Shown one piece after another: positions 1,789 through 52,900 of a stretch of 64,000 nt of DNA. The stretch spans positions 2,356,001 through 2,420,000 of the forward strand of contig JACZZP010000002.1 in NCBI GenBank assembly GCA_015183035.1. Direction: 5' to 3'. Position 1 is the stretch's first letter. The number at the start of each line of letters is the position of its first letter. The notes beneath the pieces were generated by a model that saw only the letters and a list, made by a program, of their open reading frames with translations, ran no database searches and was not told where the DNA came from. The DNA comes from Meloidogyne chitwoodi (Eukaryota > Nematoda > Chromadorea > Rhabditida > Meloidogynidae). Made by a program: the position numbers and the translations under genes.

Positions 1789-3985
1789 ATGAATGTTTAT
1801 TTCTTTCATCCAAATGAATATGAACGTCTTTACAATTGTAGTATTTACAATATTGACCAAATCCCACTGGAAAAACGACAACATAAATTTCTCAGCATTT
1901 TTGTCATAATTTTGTCAGCAATTTATGAAGTTAGGGAAAATTAAAATTTGGGGAGATATTTTGTTTTATTGGATTATTAAATATTTATTTATTTCGATTT
2001 AAGTCACCAGAATTCTTTTAATGCGAAAATATATATAAAAAACAATACAGACACTTAAACTTTAAAAAAGCAAAGGGGGGAGTAAGCTCATTTTAGGAAG
2101 CTAAGGGAGGTGTAAGCTCATTTTAAGTGATTACCGCGGCTGCTTCCAACTTACCCATCTCTTTTTAAAAATTAAAATAATTATTTTTTCGTCCTGAAAA
2201 TTTTTTTTTTTAATTTTCAAAAGTTCCGGACATGTTGTTCGGAACTATCGAAAAAAATTTTTTAAATTCAAAAAATAAAATAATTAAAAAAAATTTTTTT
2301 TTCTCAGATTCTCTATATTCCTTGCTTGTTTTCAATTTTTAAAAGAATGAAAAATAGTAATTGCTATAAAATAATGTTTTATATTGGAATTATTGATATG
2401 GCTACAATTTTGTGTAATGGATTTTTAACTGGTTATTTGGGTTATTTTGGTTATGTTTTTTGTTCTTCTCCAAAATTAATTTATTTTGCGGGAGCTTATG
2501 GATTTTGTTTGTTTTTTTAATTTCAAAAAAAATTATTTTATTTTCTTTTTTCAGTTTGTTGGATAATAGAATCCTCAATTGAAATTTTTTTAGCTTTAAA
2601 TAGATGCATTGAACTTTGGTCTTCTGACTTGACTAAAAAATTTTTTGATGGTATTAACTAAGGGGGGATTTAATAATCCAGACAAAAAATCATATTTTAC
2701 ATAAAAAATTAAAAATATTTTCTTGCGAATAAATGGGGTGTTCACCTACAGTAGTCAAGTTTTAATTTTTTTAGGCAAAAAGTTGTTTATTTGGTTTGGA
2801 ATTTCTTTTTTATATGGTTTGGCTTTATTTATATGGTCAAAACCAGTTACATTTAGTGGTATTTACTTTAGTTGGTTTTTTAATCCTCACATTGGATATA
2901 TTGAGGATAATCAAGTAATAATTATTATATTTTAAATAATAAATATTTATTCCCCGCTACGCCCCCGAACCCCGGGAATTTTTGATATTTTTTTTAATTT
3001 TCCACGTCCTCCCCCGTGACGAAAAAAATTTTCCCCGTCCCCCCTCAGTTCAAAAATTCCCCGAAGTTTCCTTTTGTCCTTCCCCGACGGGGAACAACCC
3101 TAATAGTGAATGAGAAAATAATAATATCACCTTTTTGAATCTCTTCACTCTCTAAAATTATTAAATTAAAAATTAAATTAATTTAGCAACAATATGAAAA
3201 TAAATTTCACTCAATTCACAATTTAATTATTGTATTTTCCTTATTAATTACTTACTTTACATTTTACATAATTTTTATAATAAAAACAAAACAAGGCGGA
3301 ATTGAATCTAGTCAACAAAGTTTTTGTGAAAAAAAAGTTTATTTTTATAAAGTATTTTAAAAAAAAGTTTATTAAATTTAGATTTTTGTTCAAGTTTTTT
3401 TAATTAGCTTATTTAATGGTGTTTCTGCTTCAATTTATGTTTTTATGCAATATATTCATATTAATGAAATTATTATTATTATTGGACAATTATTTTGGTT
3501 AAATGCACATGGTTTGTTATTTAATTAATTTAAATTATTTTAATTTAATTTAAATTTAAAAAAATAATTAAATTATTGGGAGATCATTTTTAACATTTTC
3601 TAATCTTTTAATAAATTTTAATATTTTTGAATAAATGGATTTTCACCTAAATTATACAAATTCTTTTATTTATTTATAATTAATCCCCTAAAAAAATTTT
3701 TTTATGAAAATTAATTTATTTTTTGACTTATTTAATTGCTTTCACTTAAATTAAAAATAAAATAATATTTATTTATTTTTAGGAATTCCACCAATTATTT
3801 ATTTAACACTAAACAAATCAATTCAAAATGACTGTATTAAAATGTTTAAAAATTTAATTAAAAAATTTTATCCAATAAATTCTAATAATTCTGTTTATCC
3901 TTCTAATATTCAACAATTAACTTGTACAAAAGAAAGGGTTATTATTAATAATATGTCAATGCCACATCAAGTTGAAATTAATTAA
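1789..3985 (+). CDS. Srt-class serpentine chemoreceptor (7TM GPCR)
   Basis: Seven exons join without a frame break: 1789-1929, 2308-2506, 2555-2650, 2775-2914, 3187-3336, 3382-3511 and 3783-3985, giving about 352 residues, usual for the family. Family marks: N-terminal 'ERLYNCSIYNI' ending 'LSAIYE', then 'ILYIPCLFSIFKRM', 'LIYFAGAYGFFCWIIESS', 'LALNRCIELW', 'FVQVFLISLFNGVSASIYV' and a TM7 region 'GIPPIIYLTLNKSIQND'. These fit the nematode Srt group of the Srg superfamily, chemosensory receptors of the ciliary membrane. The start is the first ATG in frame with the conserved N-terminus. Intron 4 (2915-3186) carries a C-rich block at about 2950-3105 unlike its surroundings, probably a transposon remnant. 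Ligand cannot be told. Confidence 0.82.
2950..3105. repeat. C-rich insert in receptor intron 4
   Basis: Runs of CCCCG/CCCCGTC in an otherwise AT-rich intron. The right end reads GGGGAACAACCCTA, which resembles a hAT-type end, but no matching left end or target duplication was found. Probably a truncated transposon copy. Confidence 0.3.
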
Positions 3986-4588
3986 AATATATTTTTTAAT
4001 AAATTTTTATTTCACAATTTTCAATAAATTGTGTTTTGACATTTTCAATAAATTTAAACAAATTCCAAAATTATATTACCTCAAAAATTTTATTTTTAAT
4101 TAATAAATTTAAATATTTATTTTTTATTTTTTTTTTAGCTAAAAATATAATATTAAAAATATGTTTCATTATTTTGTTGTTTTTCGTTTTGTTTCATTTG
4201 GCTCAGGTTTTTGGTTGAAACAGATTGACTTCTTTGCCTTGCAGAATCATTATCGTGTTTTGACTTGGAGAGATGTTCACAAAAAATTCTAAAAAATTAA
4301 GTTTGAACCTAAAACTTTTTTAAGCTTAAACTTAAAACTTTTTTAAATTTGAACTTGAAACTTTTTTAAGATTGAATTTAAAAGCTTGAACTTGAAACTT
4401 TTTTAAGCTTGAACTTAAGCTTTGAATAAATATAGAATAAAACTTAAGTTAAACTTGAACTTAAAATATTTTAAATTTGAACTTAATTTTTTAACTTATA
4501 AACTTATTTTTAATAATTAAAAAAATGCAAGTGTTTCTATTGTGAGAACAGGAGACTTTTAATTTTAAATTTTTATTATAAAAAAATC
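3986..4588. other. Intergenic spacer with simple repeat
   Basis: Spacer between two convergent genes. Positions about 4300-4500 hold imperfect copies of a GAACTTAAAACTTTTTTAAG unit. No coding signal is supported. Confidence 0.5.
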
Positions 4589-6244
4589 TTACTTTTTTGT
4601 AACAAATTTAACATTAAATCCATTAAGTAATTCATTTAATGTTTCTTTTAAACTTTTATTATTTATTTCATTTCTATTAAATTAAAAATTAAATTTAAAA
4701 AATAATTTAAATTTTTTTTACTCATTTTTTTGTTCATTAATAAATATTTTGTCATTATTATTATTTTTAAAATGTTTATTATTATTCTCTGAAGGAACAC
4801 TTTCAATATAAAGAAATAAATGTTCTAATTTATTTGATTTTAAATTTTTAATAAGTAAATAAACAGCTATTATTATTGGAATTATATGAATTGTAATTAT
4901 TACTGTTAACTGAATATTAAATAATTAATTAATTAAAAAAGATTCAAATTAATCAAAATAAATTAAATAAATTTAAAATAAAATTTACTGAAGATTTGCT
5001 AAGTACAGTATCATGAATTTGTCCTGCACAGGGTGGTTTCTTTAAATAAAAATATTAAAAAAATAAATTTAATTATTTTACCACAATATCATCATCATTA
5101 AAAAATTCACATTCAAAATAATCTTCAATAGGTAAACGACCTTTACGATTAATTTCAATTAAAATATTTAATAATTTTGCTAATAAAAATCGTATAGTGT
5201 AAATTGATTGAGTTATGCTTGTCTAAATAATAAAAATAAAATTTTGATTTAAAAAATAATTTAATTAATTAATTAATAACTTGTATTGTAAGTGCTTGTG
5301 TAATTGATAAAATTAATGCCAGAGCTGGGCAAAGCTTAAAATTAAAAAATATTATTTTTTTAATTTTATCAAAATATGTTTATTTATACAAATAAATTTA
5401 AATTTTTTTAAATTAAGAATAATTTAAAAAAAATTTATTTATTAAATTAATTAACCAAATAAATATATTGTAATCTTATAGGCAACCTTCTCTTCTTATC
5501 TTTAATTAACCAGGCAAACATACACAAATTAATTGCAGGAAATAAAAGTTCTATAATTTCTGCTACAAATAAATTCCAAAGTTGATCATGATACTTAAAT
5601 TATTTATATTTTATTTATTTTTTATATTTGTAATTCAAGTTTATTTTTATATTTGTAATCCAAGTTTATTTTTATATTTGTAATTCAAGTTTATTTTCTG
5701 TATTTGTAATTCAAGTTTATTTTTATATTTTTAATTCAAGTTTATTTTTTATATTTGTAGTTCAAGTTTATTTGTTATATTTGTAATTCAAGTTTATTTT
5801 TTATATTTGTAATTTAAGTTTAGAAACACTTAAATTTGTTTATATTTATTTAAATTAATTAATTAATTAATTTACATAATCAATTTGATTAATTCTTTCA
5901 GTATTATTTCCTTCTAATTTAAATTTTAAAGTTGAATTTGGAAGTGTAATATTCATTGAATCTGTTTCAATAATATAATCATATAATAAATTATATAATT
6001 TTCCAAAATTATAAGCAAAAGAAGCAAAAATAATTGTATTAGCTATTTGACAAATAAATATAGCTGCTGATACTAATGCTGGTAAATAATAACTCCATTG
6101 AATTATCTAATTAATATTAATATTTTAATAATTAATTTAATTAATTTGCTTTACTACCTTTTCGTTTACCCTTTGATCTGCAATTTCTCTAAATGATTTT
6201 AAATGTGTTTCAAGTTGTTCACGTCTTTGTGCAGATGTTGCCAT
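4589..6244 (-). CDS. Unrecognised four-TM membrane protein
   Basis: Eight or so short exons join in frame from the ATG at 6244 ('MATSAQRREQLETHLKSF') to a stop at 4589. Four hydrophobic stretches are seen: after 'IIQWSYYLPALVSAAIF', around 'LWNLFVAEIIELLFPAIN', 'CPALALILSITQALTIQ' with the following 'SITQSIYTIRFLLAKLL', and 'LTVIITIHIIPIIIAVYLL'. Between TM1 and TM2 lies a loop with N-glycosylation sequons (NIT, NST, NNT), so that loop is probably extracellular. An Asn-rich tail ends the protein. The intron at about 5607-5871 is filled with a roughly 25-bp repeat. I do not recognise the family. Confidence 0.6.
5607..5830. repeat. 25-bp tandem repeat in intron
   Basis: About nine imperfect copies of ATATTTGTAATTCAAGTTT plus a T-rich tail. 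The same unit occurs inverted in UGT copy 1 intron 1 (about 590-660) and in UGT copy 2 intron 6 (about 31690-31830). Confidence 0.75.
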
Positions 6245-15632: not shown

Positions 15633-15794
15633 TTATCCTTGAAATATTCCATTAAAAAGTATTTCATTTCCTTTGTTGACAAGCATAAAAGTAAAAGGAT
15701 GATCAGCATTAAATGTTGGTCTAGGTGGTTTTAAACTTTTACGAGTTATTTCAATGCCTGTAGCTGCGGCTGCTTCTGTCCCTTCTTCATTCAA
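15633..15794 (-). other. Distal serpin reactive-loop exon copy (F)
   Basis: Exon-like unit after an acceptor AG, open for 53 codons to a stop at 15633. It reads 'LNEEGTEAAAATGIEIT' (serpin hinge), then 'PPRPTFNADHPFTFMLV' and 'ILFNGIFQG'. It is equivalent to the last exon of the serpin at 22531-24612, with which it shares phase, but has a different loop centre. It could be a far alternative last exon or a relic of a lost serpin copy. Confidence 0.75.
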
Positions 15795-16129
15795 CTAGTA
15801 TTTTGACAATGTTTTTAATAAAAATTAGTTAAATTAAACTAGAATTTAGAAGCTTTTTTTAAATAAATAAAAACTGAATTGCATTCCGGAAAAACATTAA
15901 TATACATAAACATCATTATTTTTTACTGAAAACAATCAAGATTTTCAGAAACATACTACATTTAAATACTTTCCGGAAAAACATTTATTTAATTTTAATA
16001 TGAAGATGATATATACCTATAAACAAACATTGTTATAAACATTTTCTCTCAATTACAAAATATAATTTAAAATTATAAATAAAGTTTCAAAAATTGAAAT
16101 TTTTTTTAACATTTATTTTTCATTTTTCT

Positions 16130-16294
16130 TTATCCTTGAAATATTCCACTAAAAATAATTTCGTTCTTAACAAGCATAAAAGCATAAGGATGGTCAGCAA
16201 TAAATTTTGGTTGAGGCGGTGGATTCAAAGGTAGGCTAACAGGAACCATGACAATGGCTGTAGCTGCAGCTGCTTCTGTTCCTTCCTCATTTAA
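16130..16294 (-). other. Distal serpin reactive-loop exon copy (E)
   Basis: After the acceptor AACAG it reads 'LNEEGTEAAAATAIVMVP', a Pro-rich loop 'PPPQPKFIADHPYAFMLV' and 'IIFSGIFQG' then stop. The hinge is intact and the frame open, so it could encode a working serpin C-terminus if spliced to a body. Confidence 0.75.
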
Positions 16295-16479
16295 CTGTTT
16301 TTTAATTATTTTATTCAAAATTATATTAAAAATGTGTGCCCTTCAATTAATATTTTCTACGCTTTTTTATTTTACATAAAATTGCTACAGACATTTTACA
16401 AAATATAATTTTAAAATTTAATAAATTTTCCCAAAAATTTATTACTAAATTTTCTTTCAATTTTTCCTTTTATTTTTCT

Positions 16480-16764
16480 TTATCCTTGAAATATTCCACT
16501 AAAAATAATTTGGTTTCCTTTGACAAGTATAAAAGTAAAAGGATGGTCAGCAATAAATTTTGGTACAGGAGGTGGTAAAAGGCCTAGTTCTGAGATTTTA
16601 TGTAAGAAACTTTTAATGTATTTTAAAGCTTTTTGAGGTTTGTTTAGTGTTCTGATATTATAAGTATTTTGTTTTATAGAAATTCTGATTTTACCGGAAG
16701 GATATTTTATAAATAAATTCTGATTGATAAGAGAAGAAAAATTCCATAAATGGGAAAACTTCAA
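16480..16764 (-). pseudogene. Serpin tail (copy D) joined to methyltransferase-derived sequence
   Basis: The downstream end reads 'PPPVPKFIADHPFTFILV' and 'IIFSGIFQG', the tail of a serpin last exon, but the hinge 'NEEGTEAAAATA' is missing. Upstream the sequence is a non-serpin run containing 'KALKYIKSFLHKISELGL', continuous with the METTL23-like remnant. The frame stays open across the junction, near 16600. This looks like a chimera made when the methyltransferase segment and a serpin exon were brought together. Expression is unknown. Confidence 0.5.
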
Positions 16765-17546
16765 ACAGCTGCCTCAACATTTTTATTAAAATATCAAAAA
16801 CACAAGGATCATAAAAGACATCAGAGCCGAAAAGATAATCAACACGAATAGATTTATTGAGTAAAGCATTAATACCAATTTCTGGATTTTGCCAGTCAAA
16901 ACCCTATCAGAAATAGACAAAAATAAATTTAAAGAAAATTTAATAACCAACAAATAAACGCTCTTTTCAACAAGAGAAGGATCAAAATTTCTGTTCAGAT
17001 TGCGTTGAATTGACTCGAATGCCTTAAAATAAGGGGAAAACTTTAAATACTATTTTTGGAAAAAATCTCTCCTTAATTTCCATATTTTTAAATTTTAAAA
17101 TCCTATTAAAATCCAAAACAAACTTTATCAAGTGAGATTGTTCAGTAATCACAACCTTGAAGCCCCACAACGCAAAACGTCATCTTAGCTCCATCTAATA
17201 AACTAAAAAAATTCACCATTTCTGCATTGTTTTTGATTAAATGTCACATTCTAAATTTTTAATAAATAGAATATTTAAATTAATTTAAAAAAGGAATTTT
17301 TGCCTTTTTTATACAAATTGTTGCTTTTTCAAAATCATTATAGTAATTATCAGGCAAAATAAAATAAGTTTTTTGTATTTGAGCTGAAAAAAAATACAAA
17401 AACATTTTATTATTATTTTTGTTTACAAACATTCATTTAAAGAAGGCGCTTCAACTATATTAATAATATTCAAAATAAGTTTGACCAATTTCCTTCCCAG
17501 CATTCCAACATAAAAGAAATAGCAGATAAATGTAATAAAAGGCCCT
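16735..17546 (-). pseudogene. METTL23-like methyltransferase remnant
   Basis: Pieces of a METTL23-type protein methyltransferase appear in order: 'CWNAGKEIGQTYFEYY', 'KVVITEQSHLIKF', 'AFESIQRNLNRNFDPSL', and 'DYLFGSDVFYDPCVFDIL' followed by 'FPFMEFFFSYQ'. In METTL23 the matching parts bind AdoMet and line the active site. I could not join the exons in one frame. An in-frame stop lies before 'RFALWGF', the GxGxG region is not readable, and a copied piece of the adenylyl cyclase gene sits at about 17303-17472. Most likely a broken copy. Confidence 0.5.
17303..17472 (-). repeat. Duplicated fragment of the adenylyl cyclase gene
   Basis: Nearly identical (about two changes in 125 bp over the best part) to 51015-51175, which covers the end of one C1-domain exon, an intron and the start of the next ('[15 protein letters not shown]'). 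Intron and exon were copied together, so it arose by DNA duplication, not by retrocopying. Confidence 0.85.
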
Positions 17547-17569
17547 AAAAATATTTTTAAACATATTTT

Positions 17570-17745
17570 CCGGTCGATACCCGGCCTTTTTTTTCGACCC
17601 ATGAAACCCGACCCGAGAAATTTTGGAATCCTAAATGTTCGCCTGTAGTCTTAAAAAAGGTGAATTTTTGGCAACTAAAGTGGAATAATTTTGTAAAATT
17701 TTTCGCTTGCGGCGCTAAACGACTAGAAACCCAACAGCTCAACCC
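17570..17745. repeat. Dispersed repeat related to the interior of the hAT element
   Basis: Contains CCCGGCCTTTTTT, ACCCGACCCGA and GCTTGCGGCGCTAAA motifs also seen at about 14980-15200 inside the hAT-like element. It ends just downstream of the GIY-YIG gene. Confidence 0.5.
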
Positions 17746-17758
17746 GGAAAACTGATAT

Positions 17759-18864
17759 TTAACAAACCTTTTCTGAATAGACTTCGTTAATTTGTAAAGG
17801 AAGAAGGTCAAAAATTTTTTGGTATTCTTGTTGAGAGTTAATTAAGTTTTCACCATTATCTGCTAGAATTAATAGTGCTTCATAAAATTTTGAAATTTCT
17901 AAAGACATGTTGTTTTTTATAATTTTATATTCCATGTTTGGAAATTTTTTCATCTTTTCATTGCTTCTATGTTTACTGAGTCTATCGTCAAATGTTTTAA
18001 TACCAGCACTTCCTATGTATTTAAGATTTAAAATTGACTTATTTGAACCATCTCTGAATAAATATACCTACAAAATTAATTAATAAAAAAGAGAAGATTT
18101 TATTGTTGGATATCGGATACCGTGTTTTGATTGTAAACTAGACTCAAGTGTAAGGTAAAAAATAGTTTTAAAACTTACAAGATAGTTGCCAGTTTTTGAA
18201 TTTAGAAAAGATTGAAAGTTCTTTGTACATATACCGCCTTCGTTTGAAATTCTCATAAAAGCATTGGACCAATTATTTTGATGATAAAAAGAATTTATTT
18301 TAAGACAATCATTTTTAAGATGTCTGCTAATCCTTGCTGTTTTTAAGGAACAATAAATGCAGTTTATTTCCCTTGATTTTGCATTAATACGACGTTGTTG
18401 TTTTTGCTTCGTTGTTAAAAGCCTTTCTTTTTTCATTCCCATTTTTATGCATTTCTGAATTCGACATTTTTTACAAAAGCTATAAAAAATGAATTAAAAA
18501 AAATTAAAGTATTCTAACTTTCTAGTATGTAAATTTATTTCACATGAACTCATATGTTGACATTTTAACTCTTCTAGTCTTGAAGCATATCTATAGAAGA
18601 ATCGACTGCAACACCCACAGCTATTAATAATTGTTATTAAAAAATATATAATTTTTAAATACCTAATAACACCATAACCCGTTTGTTTAGCAACAGCACC
18701 ACAAACAGCACAATCTGACGAACCCTCATCAGAATCACTTTCTGTTGTTTCTTCTGTGTCTTCATCCGTTCCTTCAATTGACTCAATATATTGCTTGGTA
18801 CTCTATAAATTAGAATTTCTAATTATGTAAATTTAAAATCTTTAATATTCAAATATACCTCCAT
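17759..18864 (-). CDS. Nuclear-receptor DNA-binding domain fused to GIY-YIG nuclease domain
   Basis: Exons 18859-18864 (ATG GAG, if it starts here), 18663-18802, 18519-18620, 18179-18479 and 17759-18067 join in frame. After an acidic leader comes a full C4 nuclear-receptor finger pair: 'CAVC', 'YGVISCGCCSRFFYR', then C-x5-C-x9-C-x2-C and 'CRIQKCIKMGM'. No ligand-binding domain follows. Instead there is a basic stretch, a C-x2-C-x9-H-x4-C knuckle ('CIYC' to 'HLKNDC'), and a GIY-YIG fold: 'YLVYLF', 'KYIGSAG', 'DDRLSKH', 'FYEALLI', 'ENLINSQ'. The conserved Arg, His, Glu and Asn are present. The exon border inside 'GNYL/VYLF' uses a consensus GTAAGT donor and matches in phase, so the two domains are on one transcript. 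It would be a sequence-directed DNA nuclease or a domesticated one. It may instead be the 3' part of the upstream kinase gene. Confidence 0.72.
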
Positions 18865-18899
18865 TGCTTCTACTAATGCGCGTTGAGTAGGTGTTGTTA

Positions 18900-20634
<1,735 letters not shown>

Positions 20635-21418
20635 TTTGTATTTCTATAAAAAATAGTTTTATTAAAACAAAATAAAAAATGGCCGCTTTGATAAGTAGTA
20701 AGTTAGATAATGAGAAAGTTAGACACGTTATTTAAACATTATGCCAAAAAAATAAAATGATTACATTTAAACCACAGCAGTTTTTTTTTTACCACACCGA
20801 GAAAAATAATTTTGATTTTATTCGAAAGAGGAGATTTTTCTTAACACATTCTATGGGCTAGAAAGTTAGGTAATCGGGCTTTTTACTATTTGATTTGGTT
20901 TATTTTCAACGTTAAAACACGCCAAAAAAGTAGCAAACCATTGGATATATAATTGTAAAAAAATCAGAATTTATCAGAATTTACAAAGGTTGAAACACAG
21001 AAACATAAAGTTAGGGAGCCGAGAGGGAAAAATTATATTTTTATTGATATTAAATTTAAATTATGTAAATATTATTTTTCCCATAATTTCCTTAAATTCT
21101 TAATTTTTATTAAATTTTAGTCATTCCCTTGCCGGTATTTTTTGATGAATTTATTTTTCTTTATTTTAGTGCCCATTTATTATTATTTTTTATAAAGCTT
21201 TATTATTTTCATAATTTTTTGTATAAAATTAAAATTTTTAAATTTAATTTTTTTTAAATTTATTATTGGATTAAGGCAAAATGAAAAAATATTTTTTAAA
21301 GAAAAAATGGAAATAGAAAATTAAATCAATTAATTATTTAAACAGCAAAATAATAAGCAATGAGTTAAATGAAGAGGGAAGAATATTTGCAGGGATTGAA
21401 GGGTAAATTTTAATTTAA
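20635..21418. other. Spacer upstream of the kinase
   Basis: AT-rich with no coding run. It should hold the kinase promoter, but no motif is recognised. Confidence 0.4.
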
Positions 21419-21541
21419 TTAAATCAGAATTTTTATTTCCGGAATAAAACTAAAATCCGGTAGAATAGATAGTAATATTGTAAACAGAAGGCCTATAACA
21501 ATTCCTGTAGCTGCGGCTGCTTCTGTCCCCTCTTCATTCAA
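21419..21541 (-). other. Proximal serpin reactive-loop exon copy (C), truncated
   Basis: After an acceptor AG it reads 'LNEEGTEAAAATGIVIGL' and continues 40 codons to a stop, but the conserved 'FNADHPF' strand and the 'GIFQG/GVFYG' end are missing. Upstream of it (21545-21660) lies a near-exact copy of the DNA upstream of copy B. If used, it would make a serpin without a normal C-terminal core; more likely a decayed duplicate. Confidence 0.6.
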
Positions 21542-21910
21542 CTACACAATAAATTAATGTTAGTTATGAAAAATTGTGAAATTAGATTTTATTATTTTAT
21601 ATGCTAGATGTGTTATTTGAAGCTATAAGATGTTAGGGTTCGTTTCCGAAAACATTTAAAAAAAGAAAATTCTAAAATAACAAACAAGGATTTCTACAAA
21701 ACAAACATCACAGAAATATATTTTCTCAGAACAAATTCCGGAAATATATTTTCTCAAAACAAATTCCGGAAACATATTCCAGAAAAACATTTTCTCAAAT
21801 CAAGTATAAAAGAACAAAAGCATTGTTTCACTACATTTTTCCAATTATTTATAAACAATTTAATCAAAATAATTTTTTAAAAATTTTCTTATATGTATTT
21901 CATTTAATTT

Positions 21911-22087
21911 TTATCCATAAAATACTCCAGTAAATAAAATTTCTTTTCCATTTTTTTCTTTAATTAATGCATAAAAAAAGGGATGATCTGCATTGAATTG
22001 AGGAATTATAACCTCTATAAATGCAGCAGCAATTTCTGGCATAATTACTGCCGTAGCAGCAGCTGCTTCAGTTCCCTCTTCATTCAG
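21911..22087 (-). other. Proximal serpin reactive-loop exon copy (B)
   Basis: 58 codons after acceptor AG: 'LNEEGTEAAAATAVIMPE', 'IPQFNADHPFFYALI', 'EILFTGVFYG' and stop. Phase matches the upstream serpin exon ending 'KAFIE'. It differs from copy A mainly in the loop centre, as expected of a mutually exclusive alternative last exon. Confidence 0.78.
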
Positions 22088-22090
22088 CTA

Positions 22091-22200
22091 CACAATAAAT
22101 TAATGTTAGTTATGAAAAATTGTGAAATTAGATTTTATTATTTTATATGCTAGATGTGTTATTTGAAGCTATAAGATGTTAGGGTTCGTTTCCGGAAACA
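22091..22200. repeat. Direct repeat flanking serpin loop exon B (copy at 21545-21660)
   Basis: About 110 bp starting ACACAATAAATTAATGTTAG and ending GGGTTCGTTTCCG is almost identical at both places. It marks a very recent tandem duplication of the loop-exon unit. Confidence 0.9.
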
Positions 22201-22530
22201 TTAAAAAAGAAAAATCTAAAAAATCAAACAATGATCTATCAAAAAACATAAAGAAAACATTTTCTAAAAACATATTCCGGAAAGATATTCCAGAAAAACA
22301 TTTTCTCAAAACATATTCCGGAAAGATATTCCAGAAAAACATTTTCTCAAAACATATTCCGGAAACATATTCCAGAAAAACATTTTCTCAAAACATTTCA
22401 GAAACATATTCCGGAAAAACTTTTTAAAAATAAGAATAAAAGAAAAAAGCATTGTTTCACAACATTTTTCCTATAAATTCATTAAAAATAAATAAATTTT
22501 TGAAGTTCCTTATTTCCCATTAAATTTCCT

Positions 22531-24612
22531 TTATCCATAAAATACTCCAGTAAATAATATTTCTTTTCCATTATTTTCATTTATTAATGAATAAAAGAAG
22601 GGATGATCTGCATTGAATTGAGGAGGAATTTTTTCAATAATAATAGCTCTAATTGTTGTAATTATTGCTGTAGCAGCAGCAGCTTCAGTTCCCTCTTCAT
22701 TAACCTGTAAAGAAGTAAAACCGGAAAAATATCAGTTGTGAAACAATGCTTTTTTCTTTAAACAAAAAACATAAACATATATTATACCAATGTTTTTCTA
22801 CTTTTTTTCAAGTTTTAATATTTAAATTATATTTCCTTACCTCAATAAATGCTTTTTGCACAACTTTGTCAATTTTCAAAGGCTGCTGCTTTGAAATTTT
22901 GGAGAAATTTGCTTTATTTCCAAAGGCTGTAACAAGGCCCATAGATTTTAAAATATCATTTAAATTATGGGTAGATTCAAGTTTAAATTTTGGAATTAAA
23001 ACCTTAAAATTAATAAAATTATGATTTTTATTTTTTAGCTCAGACTCTAATGTACCAAAATTTTTTCAAAAAATTTCTAAAAAATCCGTATTTTTTAAAA
23101 ATTACCTCAACTTTAGTTTCCTCCCCCATATTAAATAATTGCAAAATTTTTTCTCCGTTCAAATTTTCAATCATTTTTTGCAACCCAAATCGTTCTTTAG
23201 GTAATAAAAAGAACATGCTAATTTCTTCTTCTTTGTTTTCGGAATCTCCAGAATAAGACATTTTTAACATTTGAAGCTGTAAAAATAAAAATTAGGAAAA
23301 ATATAAAATTAATTATATTTTGTGGCACTGAACCGACCATTTTTTCAATTAAAAAATAAATATTTAATTTACCTCATTATTTTCAAAGTAAACAAAATTG
23401 CTTGTTTTGCTCATCATTTCAACCTTTTTTTAATTTTTTAAAAATATTTAAAAAATAAAAAAGAGAAAAACCTCTTTATTCTGGCCTTCATTAACATAAA
23501 AAACTGTTTTATGAGTATTAGATGAGTTAAACGTAGAAATCCATTTTCCTTTGAAATAAACAGCATTAACCAATACAAGACTTAAAAAAATAAAAATAAA
23601 TATTTTAAACTTTATATATTTTTTTAATTAAACTTGCCGAGTGTCAGCACTAAGTGAGTCAGAACTGATCAAATCTTTTATCTTTTCTTGTGTTGCTTTT
23701 TCCACAAAGTCATTTATAATCTTTAAAAATATTTTTTTTATTTATTTTTTGTAAATTAATTCAAAATTTTTTTAATAAATAAATTAATTAAATCTAATTG
23801 TGGCCAAATTAATTTAATTTTTTTTTGTAAAATTTCGATAAAATTAATGAGTGCCCTTGACTTAAATTAAACAAAAATATAAAATCTAATTCGTTTGTAG
23901 AGAATATAGGTCAATAATAAATAAATAAAAGAGATCTTTAGGTAAGATAAAAAGGTTTTAATTTATAATAATATATTTATTATATTAGAGAGCTTTTAAA
24001 TAATAAATTTGGTATAAATAATTATTTTATTTAAAAATAGTTAAAGTTCGTTAAAAAAGTATGTCATTATACAGAGAGTCTAATTTAAAATAATTTTTTG
24101 ATTTTTATTTTTTTACCTTTGCTGCCTCAACATTTTTAGCAAAATTTAATTGTTGAAATTGTCCTCCATAATTTGTTTTAATAAGATTTATAAAACTTTC
24201 CAAAATATTAAATCCATTTTGAACAAAAACTTTATTAGCTAAATCCAAAGTATAATTTCTTGATTTATTATTATTATAAGAATTAAGTAATTTTCCAAAA
24301 TAAGAATGTGTTGCTTCCTCTGGCAATCCTTTAACAAAAAAAAATAATTTTTTTAATTTTATATTTTGAAAAAAGATAAATAAATTAATTTATTAATTTA
24401 TTTATTTTATTACCGTCAGATAACAATTTTCCAAATTCTTCATTAGTTTCTCCATCTGCCCCAACATAAACCATTGCTAAAGCCATAGATAAAGAAAGAG
24501 GAGAAATAATTGTAGATTCTACATTTTTATTATTTTTATAAGCTACTTGAGAAAGTAAATTTATTGAAAAATCTGCTTGCGCTTTGACTATTGCCATATT
24601 ATTTTCTGACAT
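22531..24612 (-). CDS. Serpin (serine/cysteine protease inhibitor), with loop exon A
   Basis: Eight exons: 24414-24612, 24117-24328, 23638-23720, 23472-23580, 23373-23423, 23106-23276, 22841-23002 and 22531-22704, about 386 residues, normal for a serpin. Seen: 'STIISPLSLSMALAMVYVG', 'ADTRLVLVNAVYFKGKW', 'MFFLLPKERFG', 'VLIPKFKLEST', hinge 'VNEEGTEAAAATA', 'PPQFNADHPFFYSLI' and 'ILFTGVFYG'. Serpins trap proteases by inserting the cut loop. The Ala-rich hinge predicts an inhibitory type. No signal peptide is seen at MSENNM, so an intracellular product is likely. Exon 3 ends ACTCG before GCAAGT, a GC-AG intron that keeps the 'DTRLVLVN' frame. Further copies of the last exon lie downstream at 21911-22087, 21419-21541, 16480-16600, 16130-16294 and 15633-15794. 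Confidence 0.92.
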
Positions 24613-26052
24613 TTTTTAATATATTTATTGTAATAAATAAATTTTCTAAAAATAATTTAAATTTTATACGCTGTATTAGTAATAAAACTAATCAGAATTT
24701 ATAGAATTTACGTATAAATAAAAATCAGAATTTTCAGAATTTCTTTTAAAAAACAGAATTTTTTAAATTAAAAAAACAGAATTTTGTCAGAATTTTTTAA
24801 ATTAAAAAATCAGAATTTTTTTATTAAAAATCAGAATTTTGTCAGAATTTTTTAATTAAAAATCAGATTTTGTCAGAAATTTTTATTGAAAAACAGAATT
24901 TTTTAAATATAAAGCAAATAAGATAATAATAATTTTATTTTTAAGGTGATAGAAACTAAAAGTTCACAAAATTTCTATTTATAAAAAAACATTTCACTAT
25001 TATTTTGTTAATTTTTATAAAAATCTGAGAAAAATATTAAAAAATAAATTTGACAATTTTATGAGAATAAATAATTGGTAAAAATAAATGTATCAATAAA
25101 TAATAATAATAATCGGCCGCCTTTTTGATGACTAATTCTCAGTTGTATGAATGCGTAAATATTTTATTTTTCGGTTGTTTACATGGTAATTTTTTTTTTG
25201 ATTATTATTACTAATACAAAGTATTTTGAACAAAAATGTATTTTTAATTAAAATCAGAATTTTCTCAGAATTTTTTAAATAAAAAATCAGAATTTTTTTA
25301 TTAAAAATTAGAATGTTTAATATAAAATCAGAATATTTTCAGAATTTTTGAAGTAGAAATAATCAGAAGAAGAAAAGAAATAATCAGAATTAATATCAGA
25401 ATTTTATTAAGTATACAACAAATTAATCAAAAAATAACAATAAGAGTTTATTTAAAATTTCAGAATATTTATATAAATAAAAAATTCAGAATTTTGTTAA
25501 AATCAAAGATAAGAATACCTAAACATATTTCAGAACATCATCTGAACAAATTTATTTTTTTTAATTTATTTATTACAAAAAAATGTTTATATAAATAAGC
25601 TAAAATATACTTGTCTCTTTAATGTAAATAAAAATAACAGCTGTTTTCATATAAATTTTATTTTTTTATTTTTTATGAATATTTTTTTTATTAAATAAAT
25701 TTATTTAATATTTATGTTTATCAAATTTTATGAAAATAAAAATTTTAAATATTTTTTTAAATTTTTTATATAAATAATTTAATATGAAAAGAATGGAATA
25801 ATGTGACAAAATGGCCAATTTTTTGAAATGTGACTAAATGTAATTATTTAACGAATAATTTTTGCATTTATTTTTTTGTACTAATTTTTGTGTTTTGTTA
25901 TTAGAATTGACTTGAAAATTCACATTTTTAAAGCAGCTGCATAAGTATTAGAAAAAATTATTTTTTAGCAATTTAGCTTTTATACTCACATTAAAAATTA
26001 ATTTTAATTATTTATTAAATTTATTTCTTTTTAAAAAATTTAAATAAAAATA
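24613..26052. other. Spacer rich in TCAGAATT repeats
   Basis: Divergent promoters of the serpin and lipase genes should lie here. About 24680-24910 and 25250-25500 are made of AATCAGAATTTTTT units. No gene is seen. Confidence 0.6.
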
Positions 26053-49900: not shown

Positions 49901-52900
49901 GTAATAAAATAAGGCGACATTCTGATTTAAGAAACACTTCTCGATTAAAAAAAGGCAAAAGAAGCGAGGGGGAAAGTTGATAACTTCCAGTTGTACAATG
50001 AAATAAAATGTTTAATCTGTGAATAATAAAAAAAGTTTTAATTTAATTCTGATTTGTTTTAATTAGATTCTGAAAATTATGTTAAGTTATTCTTATCGTG
50101 TTCAGATTTAATTCTGATTTTGTTTTAGTTCAAATTAAATCAGAAATTTAAATTTATCAAAATTTACCTTGTTGTAGGCAGACTACCCAAATTATTTTCA
50201 ATTAATGTAATGCTCACACCATTTCTATTTCTTTCAGAATAATCTACAAATGCATCTTTTCGTTGACGTTTTTCAGATTGTATGTTATTATTTGTATGAG
50301 AAAATCCATTTAATTTTGGGTTTTCATCATCAGAAACAACAATGCTTGGATTAACGACTGTATCATTTTCTGAATGTTTTTATTTAATTCTGATTTTATT
50401 TTCTGGTTTTTTCTGATTTTTTAAGAAAAATAAAACAAAATCAGAATTAAATTCAAACAAACTAGATGTTTAATTTTTGTTTTATTCTGGTTTATTCCAA
50501 TATTTATATTTAATTCTGATTTTGTTCAGATAGTGTTTTGTTCCAAATGTTTTTAATTTAAATGTTTTTTAAAGTAATTTGTTTTTACCGTTATTTATTT
50601 GTTCTGAAAGTTGAATAGATCCTCTTGTATTATTATTTTGTAATGTTTCTTCTGTTTCTGACAAATTAACACCATTAATATTATTATTCAAAAAATCATT
50701 GTTTTTATTAATTGTTTTTCTTTTATTAGTAATATTTCTGTTTTTATAAAATTGTTGTTGTTCTCTATTAAATTTTCTATTAATATTGGGTGTTGCAAGT
50801 TCTTTAGTTTGTTCCCCCCAATATTCTGCCATTTTTACACTTTTAACCTTCATTGAAATTGTTCTATAATGTTTAGTAGTATTACAATCTTGTGGAAGAA
50901 GATAATTTTGATCAAAATTTTTTTCATTTTGTATTTTGGTTAAATTAAATTCTGAGGGACTAAAAAATATTTTATTTTTAATTTATAATTAAAAAAAATA
51001 TTTTTGCCTTTTATTTATACAAATTGTAGCTTTTTCAAAATCATTATAATAATTATCAGGCAAAATAAAATAAGTTTTTTGTATTTGAGCTGAAAAAAAA
51101 TACAAAAACATTTTATTATTATTTTTGTTTACCAACATTCATTTAAAGAAGGCGCTTCAACTATATTATAATTGTCAATAAGGCTATCTTTTGTTTTATT
51201 GCTTATATGTAAAGCTCTAAAATTAGATATTTTATTTTTATTTAAAAAAATTTTTTTTTAATAAAAATTTAATTTTTTTTAAATTTTGAAATGTTGACAA
51301 AAAATTTTTTAATATAAAAAAAAAATTAATTTTACCCAGGTTTTCCAGTCATTTCCATTTGATTAGCAAAAGTAACATCATCAGACCAAATATCAAATTG
51401 CCATTTACGTAAACCCAATATTCCACATAGAACAGAGCCACTATGTACACCAATTCGCATATCTACATTAACTCCTGTAGCTAGTCTTACATGACGAATA
51501 GTTTTGATCATTTCTAGGCCTTAAATATAAAATATATAAAATAATCTTTGATAACTCTGTAGCTCATTTTTCAACGATTTTAAGGGGAAGCGCGAACGCT
51601 GTCCCCAATACTCAAAAATTTAGCTGTAAGCCTACTTCTATTTGAAGCCGCTCTGCGGGTCAACCTCGCCCAAAAGTGCAATGGGGAAGTCTCACTACAG
51701 ACGTCCTGCCTTGTTGGTCGCAGGAACGTCCCAGCCAGGTAAGTTTATGAGTTGACAAATTAAAGGAGAATATAAAACATTTAATAATAAAAAGTATCAG
51801 TTTATAAATAGCAATGTATTTTTGTACAAAATCTTATATTATTTTTGTATTCTCACTCATCTTTACCTATTCTTTATTACTCGTTTCTTTTACTTTTTAT
51901 CTCTGACAATAACGCTATTTTTATTTATTTCTTTCTTTAACAAAACCTTTAGAATTTCTCAAGGTTTTTTAACATTTATTTAAACAATTTTTTAACTCTG
52001 GAACGGAAATATATTAAATTAAATTAATAGATTTAAATGTCTAAATTTAGGCCAAATTTTAAAATTTTTAAAATTTAATTTTATTATAAAAACCCTCTTC
52101 TTACCCATAAGAACACACATATCCGCATGATTAGGTCTATTAACAGGCATACCACTAACACAATAATAACAATCACCGAGAAATTTAATTCTCATACAAC
52201 TCAACTTCTAAATTACAAAAAAAAAAAATTTAAAAAATTAAAAAAAAAAAATTTTAAAATTTTTTTAAAAGTTTTTTGCCTGCGCATCCGCATCAAATTT
52301 ACTGTAAAGTTCATTTAAAGTTTTAACCAAATCTTTAGCACTAAGTTGTGCTGCTAATTGAGTAAAATTGACAATATCAGCGAAAAGAATTGAAACATTA
52401 TCGTGAACCTTTTTAAATAAAAAAAAAATTAATTAAAAAATAATAATTATTGTCTCTCTTCAATTCTAGTGTTCTCTAGCCTTCTCTAACCTTCAAAGAT
52501 ATTCTTAATTAGAAATTTCTCTCAACTTGTAAATACCCTTATATTGAAGAATTTAAATTAATTTTATGTTTTTGCTAGTTAGTAAACAATTTGAAACAAA
52601 TTTTTCAAATTGTTGGTGTTTTGAAAAATTTACAGTATTTGACATTTTGAAAATTTTTCCTCAGGTAAATTTTAAATAATTAAAAAAAAAATTTCTTTTT
52701 TACCTGAACATGAAGTTCATGAAAAAGTTTCATTTGCGTAGTTCCCTGTTTACTAAAATCACCAGCTGAAGAAGTTGCAAAAATTGACTTGCTTACTTTA
52801 TCGGTTAAATAAGGGGGAATAACACTCAATAAAAGTTGATCCTTTAAAAATTAAAAAAAATTAATTAAAATTATTTTTTAACGAAAAATATTTTTTAAAT

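Follow-up and report, generated by a model that had tools for sequence, protein, structure and literature searches.

The window, the 64,000-nt stretch of Meloidogyne chitwoodi DNA that was analysed here (contig JACZZP010000002.1), carries on its minus strand a gene in which the DNA-binding domain (DBD) of a nuclear receptor (NR) is fused, within an exon, to a Cys/His knuckle that is followed by a likely GIY-YIG nuclease domain. The knuckle and nuclease form a module that recurs as a family in the same genome, and the receptor part of the gene, like the Abl-type kinase sequence upstream of it, derives from host genes. The catalytic and zinc-binding residues are retained, and the kinase copy has been under coding constraint. 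On balance it is probable that the complete chimera is made up of an Abl-derived kinase, a DBD of the NR1J+K group, the knuckle and the GIY-YIG domain, and that it belongs to a module family whose members differ in their N-terminal parts. A DNA-targeted nuclease is a plausible reading of the window gene. We infer from its sequence that the chimera would be expressed, as a single transcript, and that it would bind and cut DNA at some target and have a biological role.

The receptor-nuclease fusion and its receptor parent

A protein of 285 residues is predicted from five minus-strand exons, running from 18864 to 17759 and separated by GT-AG introns throughout (Table 1). The NR DBD occupies residues 32-100 and scores 57.1 bits against the Pfam zf-C4 profile (cut-off 21.1; E 2.5e-15), and its best match in the PDB is oestrogen-related receptor gamma (E 5e-13). 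The profile check that the initial annotation had proposed therefore came out in favour of a C4-type DBD, as did the cysteine spacing, C-x2-C-x13-C-x2-C-x15-C-x5-C-x9-C-x2-C, and the two motifs it had picked out, YGVISCGCC and CRIQKCIKMGM, both of which are present. Exon 18479-18179 reads from the last part of finger 2 into the knuckle in one frame and without a stop, so the fusion of receptor and knuckle is independent of any argument from introns. The last intron, with a GTAAGT donor, an AG acceptor and phase 0, lies just ahead of the VY strand, and its donor and matching phase were as first annotated. That the domains belong together was also claimed, and is upheld by the exon shared between knuckle and finger 2 and by the recurrence of the knuckle-GIY-YIG pair in paralogues, mostly with the same intron. 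The ligand-binding domain, noted at the outset as missing, was not found by Pfam in the 685-residue model described below, in which the knuckle and GIY-YIG domain come after the DBD. In keeping with the initial annotation, no named family with such a layout was found in the searches made. An assembly artefact was set aside, since further contigs of the 30-contig assembly also carry fusions, with different partners.

Table 1. Coordinates of features in the window (positions without a C prefix), and N-terminal domains upstream of related modules
Location	Strand	Feature	Evidence
20544-20634	minus	proposed first exon, ATG 20634	hand-built GT-AG model
19348-20507	minus	Abl-derived kinase exons: 20507-20377, 20264-19996, 19854-19727, 19683-19534, 19493-19348	PK_Tyr_Ser-Thr E 7.5e-82
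18859-19304	minus	proposed linker exons: 19304-19211, 19165-19119, 19055-18970, 18922-18859	hand-built model
18864-18859	minus	exon start of 285-residue frame, ATG	spliced reading frame
18802-18663	minus	exon: acidic stretch and first NR zinc finger as far as GVI(S)	Pfam, splicing
18415-18671	minus	NR-gene-like stretch across two introns, 68% identical to C4:1013284-1013556	DNA search
18620-18519	minus	exon: P-box region CGCCSRFF and start of second finger	Pfam, splicing, receptor comparison
18479-18179	minus	exon: end of finger 2 (FCKKCRIQKCIKMGM), basic extension, C-x2-C..H..C knuckle, NWS segment	reading frame, module alignment
18067-17759	minus	last exon: GIY-YIG domain (VY, YIG, R-x3-H, E, N) and stop	Pfam, alignment, profile comparison
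17575-17719	minus	interspersed repeat directly 3' of the stop, dozens of copies, mostly 81-94% identical	DNA search
C2		BED finger	Pfam 22.7 bits, cut-off 20.6
C8		C2H2 finger	one exon 31.4 bits, cut-off 27; spliced by eye 26.6
C6		Abl-type SH3	E 2.3e-8; C9 by similarity
C29		Ig I-set; frame-broken copy at C10:1588k	spliced 37 bits, one exon 24.3, cut-off 23.7

Nuclear-receptor DBDs normally occur in transcription factors. Both intron positions within the window DBD are common to it and to a receptor gene at C4, and the DNA similarity to that gene runs across two introns (Table 1). The two proteins are 46.5% identical and all nine cysteines (9/9) are kept (hypergeometric p 0.0006); dS is 0.71 and dN/dS 0.67. 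The first finger of the C4 receptor reads CESCKAFFRR, and the window P-box is CGCCSRFF. According to PMC5071846, the residues ESCKAFFR are unique to the NR1J+K group. They are absent from the window fingers, where CGCCSRFF is found instead; descent from that group is supported nevertheless by the DNA similarity over two introns. Retention of 9/9 cysteines together with the altered P-box suggests that the zinc fold is kept and the base contacts are changed, and because the P-box is remodelled DNA binding may be altered or lost. Like the NR1J+K receptors (NHR-48, DAF-12, NHR-8), the window protein has two C4-type fingers, with the intron positions of the C4 receptor gene. It differs from them in its P-box, in having no detected LBD and in the nuclease module that follows the DBD.

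The chimeric gene sits within an array of serpin exons on the same strand. For its C-terminal reactive loop the serpin gene (minus strand, 15633-24615) has several alternative exons, identified by eye (of the type 'LNEEGTEAAAAT...'), at about 22.7, 22.1, 21.5, 16.5, 16.2 and 15.7 kb, and Pfam Serpin matches fall at 24388-24615 and 15636-15794. Two copies of a repeat of about 74 nt, 95% identical, lie 34 kb apart in the window, at 17400-17473 and 51106-51178.

The Abl-derived kinase and the extent of the gene

The gene as first annotated is probably just the 3' part of a longer one, and the kinase upstream, as well as the related chimeras elsewhere, had been overlooked. The kinase, for which the best PDB match is ABL1, lies in a copy (20489-19360) of the abl-1 kinase region at C8, with 74.5% DNA identity over 1192 nt, introns included. 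Exons are 84% (672/800) and introns 74% (199/269) identical. Because introns were copied as well, in the kinase and in the receptor part, a retrocopy was set aside. The gaps in the kinase exons are of 3, 6 and 6 nt, plus one of 1 nt at the edge of the homology, and those in the introns are non-triplet in six cases out of ten. No stop occurs in the 251 codons compared; in an AT-biased neutral simulation (5000 runs) 108 changes left the sequence stop-free in 0.26% of runs, and 54 changes did so in 2.8%. The copy has dS 0.23 and dN/dS 0.63. Its DFG motif has become DCG and its glycine loop is shorter by one residue, so the activity of the kinase may have suffered, and on these motifs the domain is probably impaired. 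The window kinase thus shares with the Abl tyrosine kinase the exons and introns copied from abl-1, and differs from it in DCG for DFG, in the DBD and nuclease that come after the kinase, and in the apparent lack of SH3 and SH2 domains ahead of it, none being seen by eye among minus-strand frames of at least 45 residues at 20-32 kb.

A path of 14 exons joined by GT-AG introns is open from the ATG at 20634 to the stop at 17759. It encodes 685 residues in the order kinase, linker, acidic stretch, NR DBD, knuckle and GIY-YIG domain. An acceptor-like TTTTTTATAG ends 9 nt short of this ATG and is possibly a trans-splice site. GT-AG joins are easily made in AT-rich DNA, and the hand-built model is therefore weak by itself. 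Linker exon 19304-19211 matches the linker of the Abl-SH3/GIY-YIG gene at C6 in 25 of 29 nt, with a score that none of 300 shuffles reached; for the same comparison with C9 the score was reached by 5 of 300. In both C6 and C9 the residues IAESST, a short match to the post-kinase part of abl-1 (0/300 shuffles each), are in one exon with the knuckle, and the stretch resembling the window linker sits between IAESST and the knuckle. Another linker exon, 19055-18970, contains an in-frame repeat of sequence from the last kinase exon (27-nt match, 0/500 shuffles), seen as a direct repeat of 40 nt, 75% identical, between 19014-19053 in the linker exon and 19435-19474 in the kinase exon. This in-frame repeat indicates that kinase-derived coding sequence extends beyond the kinase; it does not imply a join between kinase and receptor. 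The repeats around 16.9-21.4 kb were mostly AT-rich and were discounted, except for the longest direct one, which is not AT-rich and was examined further.

A single kinase-NR-nuclease gene is likely from the open path and the linker comparisons. The arrangement could instead be two neighbouring genes, an Abl-like kinase copy at 20.6-19.0 kb and an NR-GIY-YIG gene beginning at ATG 18864, which we take as a serious possibility short of a probable one. Two genes would suit the greater age of the receptor copy (dS 0.71) compared to the kinase copy (dS 0.23), the failure of the window module to group with those of C6 and C9 (in a weak tree, support 72/82), and the self-contained frame of 285 residues that opens at ATG 18864. 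They would not be expected to leave an open 14-exon path from ATG 20634 to the stop, nor a post-kinase linker like that of C6, in which IAESST and the knuckle share an exon.

The module family and its probable nuclease domain

A copy count had been suggested by the initial annotation. Exon-by-exon searches of the same genome placed the module (knuckle, nuclease or both) at no fewer than 21 loci at E<=1e-3, a lower bound from which C4:544951 (E 0.3) and C30:2151035 (E 0.01) were excluded as weak. Ten fuller loci have both parts, namely C12 (the window), C2, C8, C6, C9, C29, C10:1588k, C10:809k, C1:2391k and C3:1925k. The remaining eleven have only partial matches or contain stops within the match, ie about half of the family is partial or broken. 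The phase-0 intron ahead of the VY strand is found in eight of the ten fuller copies (at C2 the donor was taken three bases before the printed position) and is absent there in C29 and C10:1588k.

Upstream of the module, an N-terminal domain was recognised at seven of the ten fuller loci (C9 by similarity to C6; Table 1). None was recognised at C1:2391k, C10:809k or C3:1925k, and a UBM match in one frame upstream of the C1 module was sub-threshold. We take the C2H2 fingers at C8 to resemble the GLI type. In all five genes checked (C12, C2, C8, C6 and C9) sequence of the N-terminal part shares one stop-free frame with the knuckle; in C6 and C9 the part in frame is a short Abl tail downstream of the SH3 exons rather than SH3 sequence. 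The link between Ig domain and module is less sure, because the Ig exons are separate and the Ig gene was outside this one-frame test. Compared to C29, the copy at C10:1588k (L061, C10:1582001-1590000) has a 1-nt gap in its Ig exon and another in its module, two frame breaks that suggest either a broken copy or a misread one. A calponin-homology domain is present ahead of the C8 C2H2/GIY-YIG gene, on the reverse strand (L052, C8:911001-919000). The C6 and C10:1588k genes have a T-rich upstream stretch in common (71% over 177 nt), which was taken to be too simple a sequence to carry an argument.

The window receptor fingers, the window kinase and the SH3 genes are DNA-level copies of extant host genes. 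The candidate parent of the Abl parts is abl-1 at C8:1389-1391k, which the SH3 genes match at the DNA level. Host matches to the Ig part are at C27:82k and C25:917k (composite query), and to the C2H2 part at C1:2446k (80% and 61%). Such a pattern could come from a self-diversifying family of targeted nucleases, in which the module repeatedly gains DNA copies of host domains as new binding heads, but we regard this as doubtful. The heads would be the receptor and C2H2 fingers, the Abl parts, the Ig domain and perhaps the BED finger, and they might be acquired through breaks made by the module and repaired by copying host genes.

The last exon had been assigned to the GIY-YIG fold. The catalytic residues are there, but the window copy scores under the Pfam cut-off (PF01541, 22.6 bits), at 16.0 in the 685-residue model, 17.5 in the 285-residue protein, 18.9 for the last exon and 20.8 for knuckle plus nuclease, so the case for GIY-YIG rests on its relatives. 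The C29 paralogue is above the cut-off (24.3 bits, E 4e-5), and four of seven module members match PF01541 at E<=1, with no other family recurring. With hhalign the module profile was aligned to relatives of I-TevI at the VY strand, YIG and Arg (E 2e-4, probability 47%). Among seven diverged modules, with 26-30% identity to the window copy, the catalytic Tyr, Tyr, Gly, Arg, His, Glu and Asn (Y67, Y82, G84, R94, H98, E128 and N142) are invariant in 7/7; in the knuckle the His and one Cys are likewise invariant. The catalytic roles of the Tyr, YxG, Arg, His, Glu and Asn are presumed by GIY-YIG and I-TevI precedent. The Glu codon is interrupted by an intron of 32-40 nt in C2, C29 and C10:1588k. 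A chance resemblance to GIY-YIG is very improbable. The sub-cut-off score of the window copy would fit it, as would the poor, all-helical model that AlphaFold gave for the last exon from its single sequence (mean pLDDT 57, low confidence) and the lack of a GIY-YIG match for the family profile among solved structures in the PDB; a catalytic set held invariant across the family, a paralogue above the cut-off and a profile match to I-TevI relatives would not.

Comparison of the C10:809k and C3 modules gave dN/dS 0.21 over 169 codons, and that of C6 with C9 gave 0.52 (SH3 part 0.35). The two youngest pairs, which have few changes, gave about 0.8, and one of them spans the C10:1588k frame break. 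It is rather unlikely that the window chimera is decaying, catalytically dead or binding-only. That state would account for the change to DCG and the shortened glycine loop, for the remodelled P-box and for the dN/dS values of the receptor (0.67) and kinase (0.63) copies, and broken relatives of the module do exist. Against it, the window model has no stop or frame break, the gaps in the kinase exons come in threes save for the single nucleotide at the homology edge, and the GIY-YIG catalytic positions and 9/9 cysteines are retained.

Domestication from a mobile element, the origin suggested in the initial annotation, has so far not been borne out. The NR part copies a host NR1J+K gene, the 685-residue model has no reverse transcriptase, and the terminal repeats found are tentative and confined to one other pair of family members. 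A related proposal, that a mobile element which picks up pieces of host genes carries the module genes as cargo or uses them as its enzyme, is unlikely. It would explain 21 dispersed loci, 11 of them partial or with stops in the match, and copies in the form of duplicated units of about 2-5 kb. The pair in question, the C6 unit (L049 4379-6617) and the C9 unit (L050 reverse 3533-5751), has AT-rich inverted repeats, about 55-66 nt long, at the unit boundaries, but no target-site duplication was seen there, a higher-scoring inverted repeat lies elsewhere within the C6 locus, and the edges of the other two pairs are without terminal repeats. At L056 (C13:266501-274500) a hAT-like transposase, in pieces in several frames and scoring 20.9 bits against a cut-off of 21.4, is followed about 0.7 kb downstream by part of a knuckle exon of the family. 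The 685-residue model has no transposase domain either, and among the 40 of 239 candidates that were scored the window core had no further copy at the DNA level.

Outside this genome, the 285-residue fusion was matched by none of 268 candidates from protein databases at E<=0.001, and the family alignment by none of 647 at E<=0.1, in collections not known to include other nematodes. Contigs of prokaryotes and viruses, scanned for the last exon with a sensitivity to close relatives only, gave no relatives, and a phage scan likewise gave none, with three matches at E 6-8. Neither an NR-GIY-YIG fusion nor the module family is described among the PMC matches listed, a scope that leaves subscription papers and bioRxiv mostly outside.

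Proposed action and relation to known nucleases

The receptor fingers would hold the protein on double-stranded DNA and the knuckle and linker would position the nuclease. The GIY-YIG domain would then nick or cut DNA nearby, as do I-TevI or the engineered Tev-zinc-finger nucleases, with the domain order reversed; nicking of adjacent DNA by a finger-bound module is suggested by this analogy. The window module shares with I-TevI-type homing endonucleases the YxG, the R-x3-H and the later Glu and Asn, and in I-TevI Arg27 and Glu75 are the residues altered in 1ln0 and 1mk0. The nuclease of I-TevI is N-terminal, whereas that of the window gene is C-terminal, after the NR DBD, and no intron or intein home was seen for it.

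Animal GIY-YIG nucleases include LEM-3/ANKLE1 and SLX1, so that a GIY-YIG domain in a nematode protein, as in the window, has precedent. Those enzymes have other partner domains and are not known to carry an NR domain. Within animal genomes GIY-YIG domains are also found in Penelope-like retroelements (compare PMC7960049); the 685-residue window model differs from them in having no reverse transcriptase. Tev-ZFE and Tev-mTALEN are engineered enzymes that cut as monomers where the fused domain binds (PMC4065259). They place a GIY-YIG nuclease on an unrelated DNA-binding domain, as is predicted for the window product, but they are man-made with the nuclease N-terminal, whereas the window gene is natural and its nuclease is joined to receptor fingers.

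If expressed and active, the window product would be a natural DNA-targeted nuclease, and a natural nuclease with a receptor DBD would be the counterpart of the engineered Tev-zinc-finger nucleases. The questions raised are whether the chimera is expressed, what it cleaves and what effect it has on the shape of the genome. A family with exchangeable heads would show new targeted nucleases arising by exon fusion.
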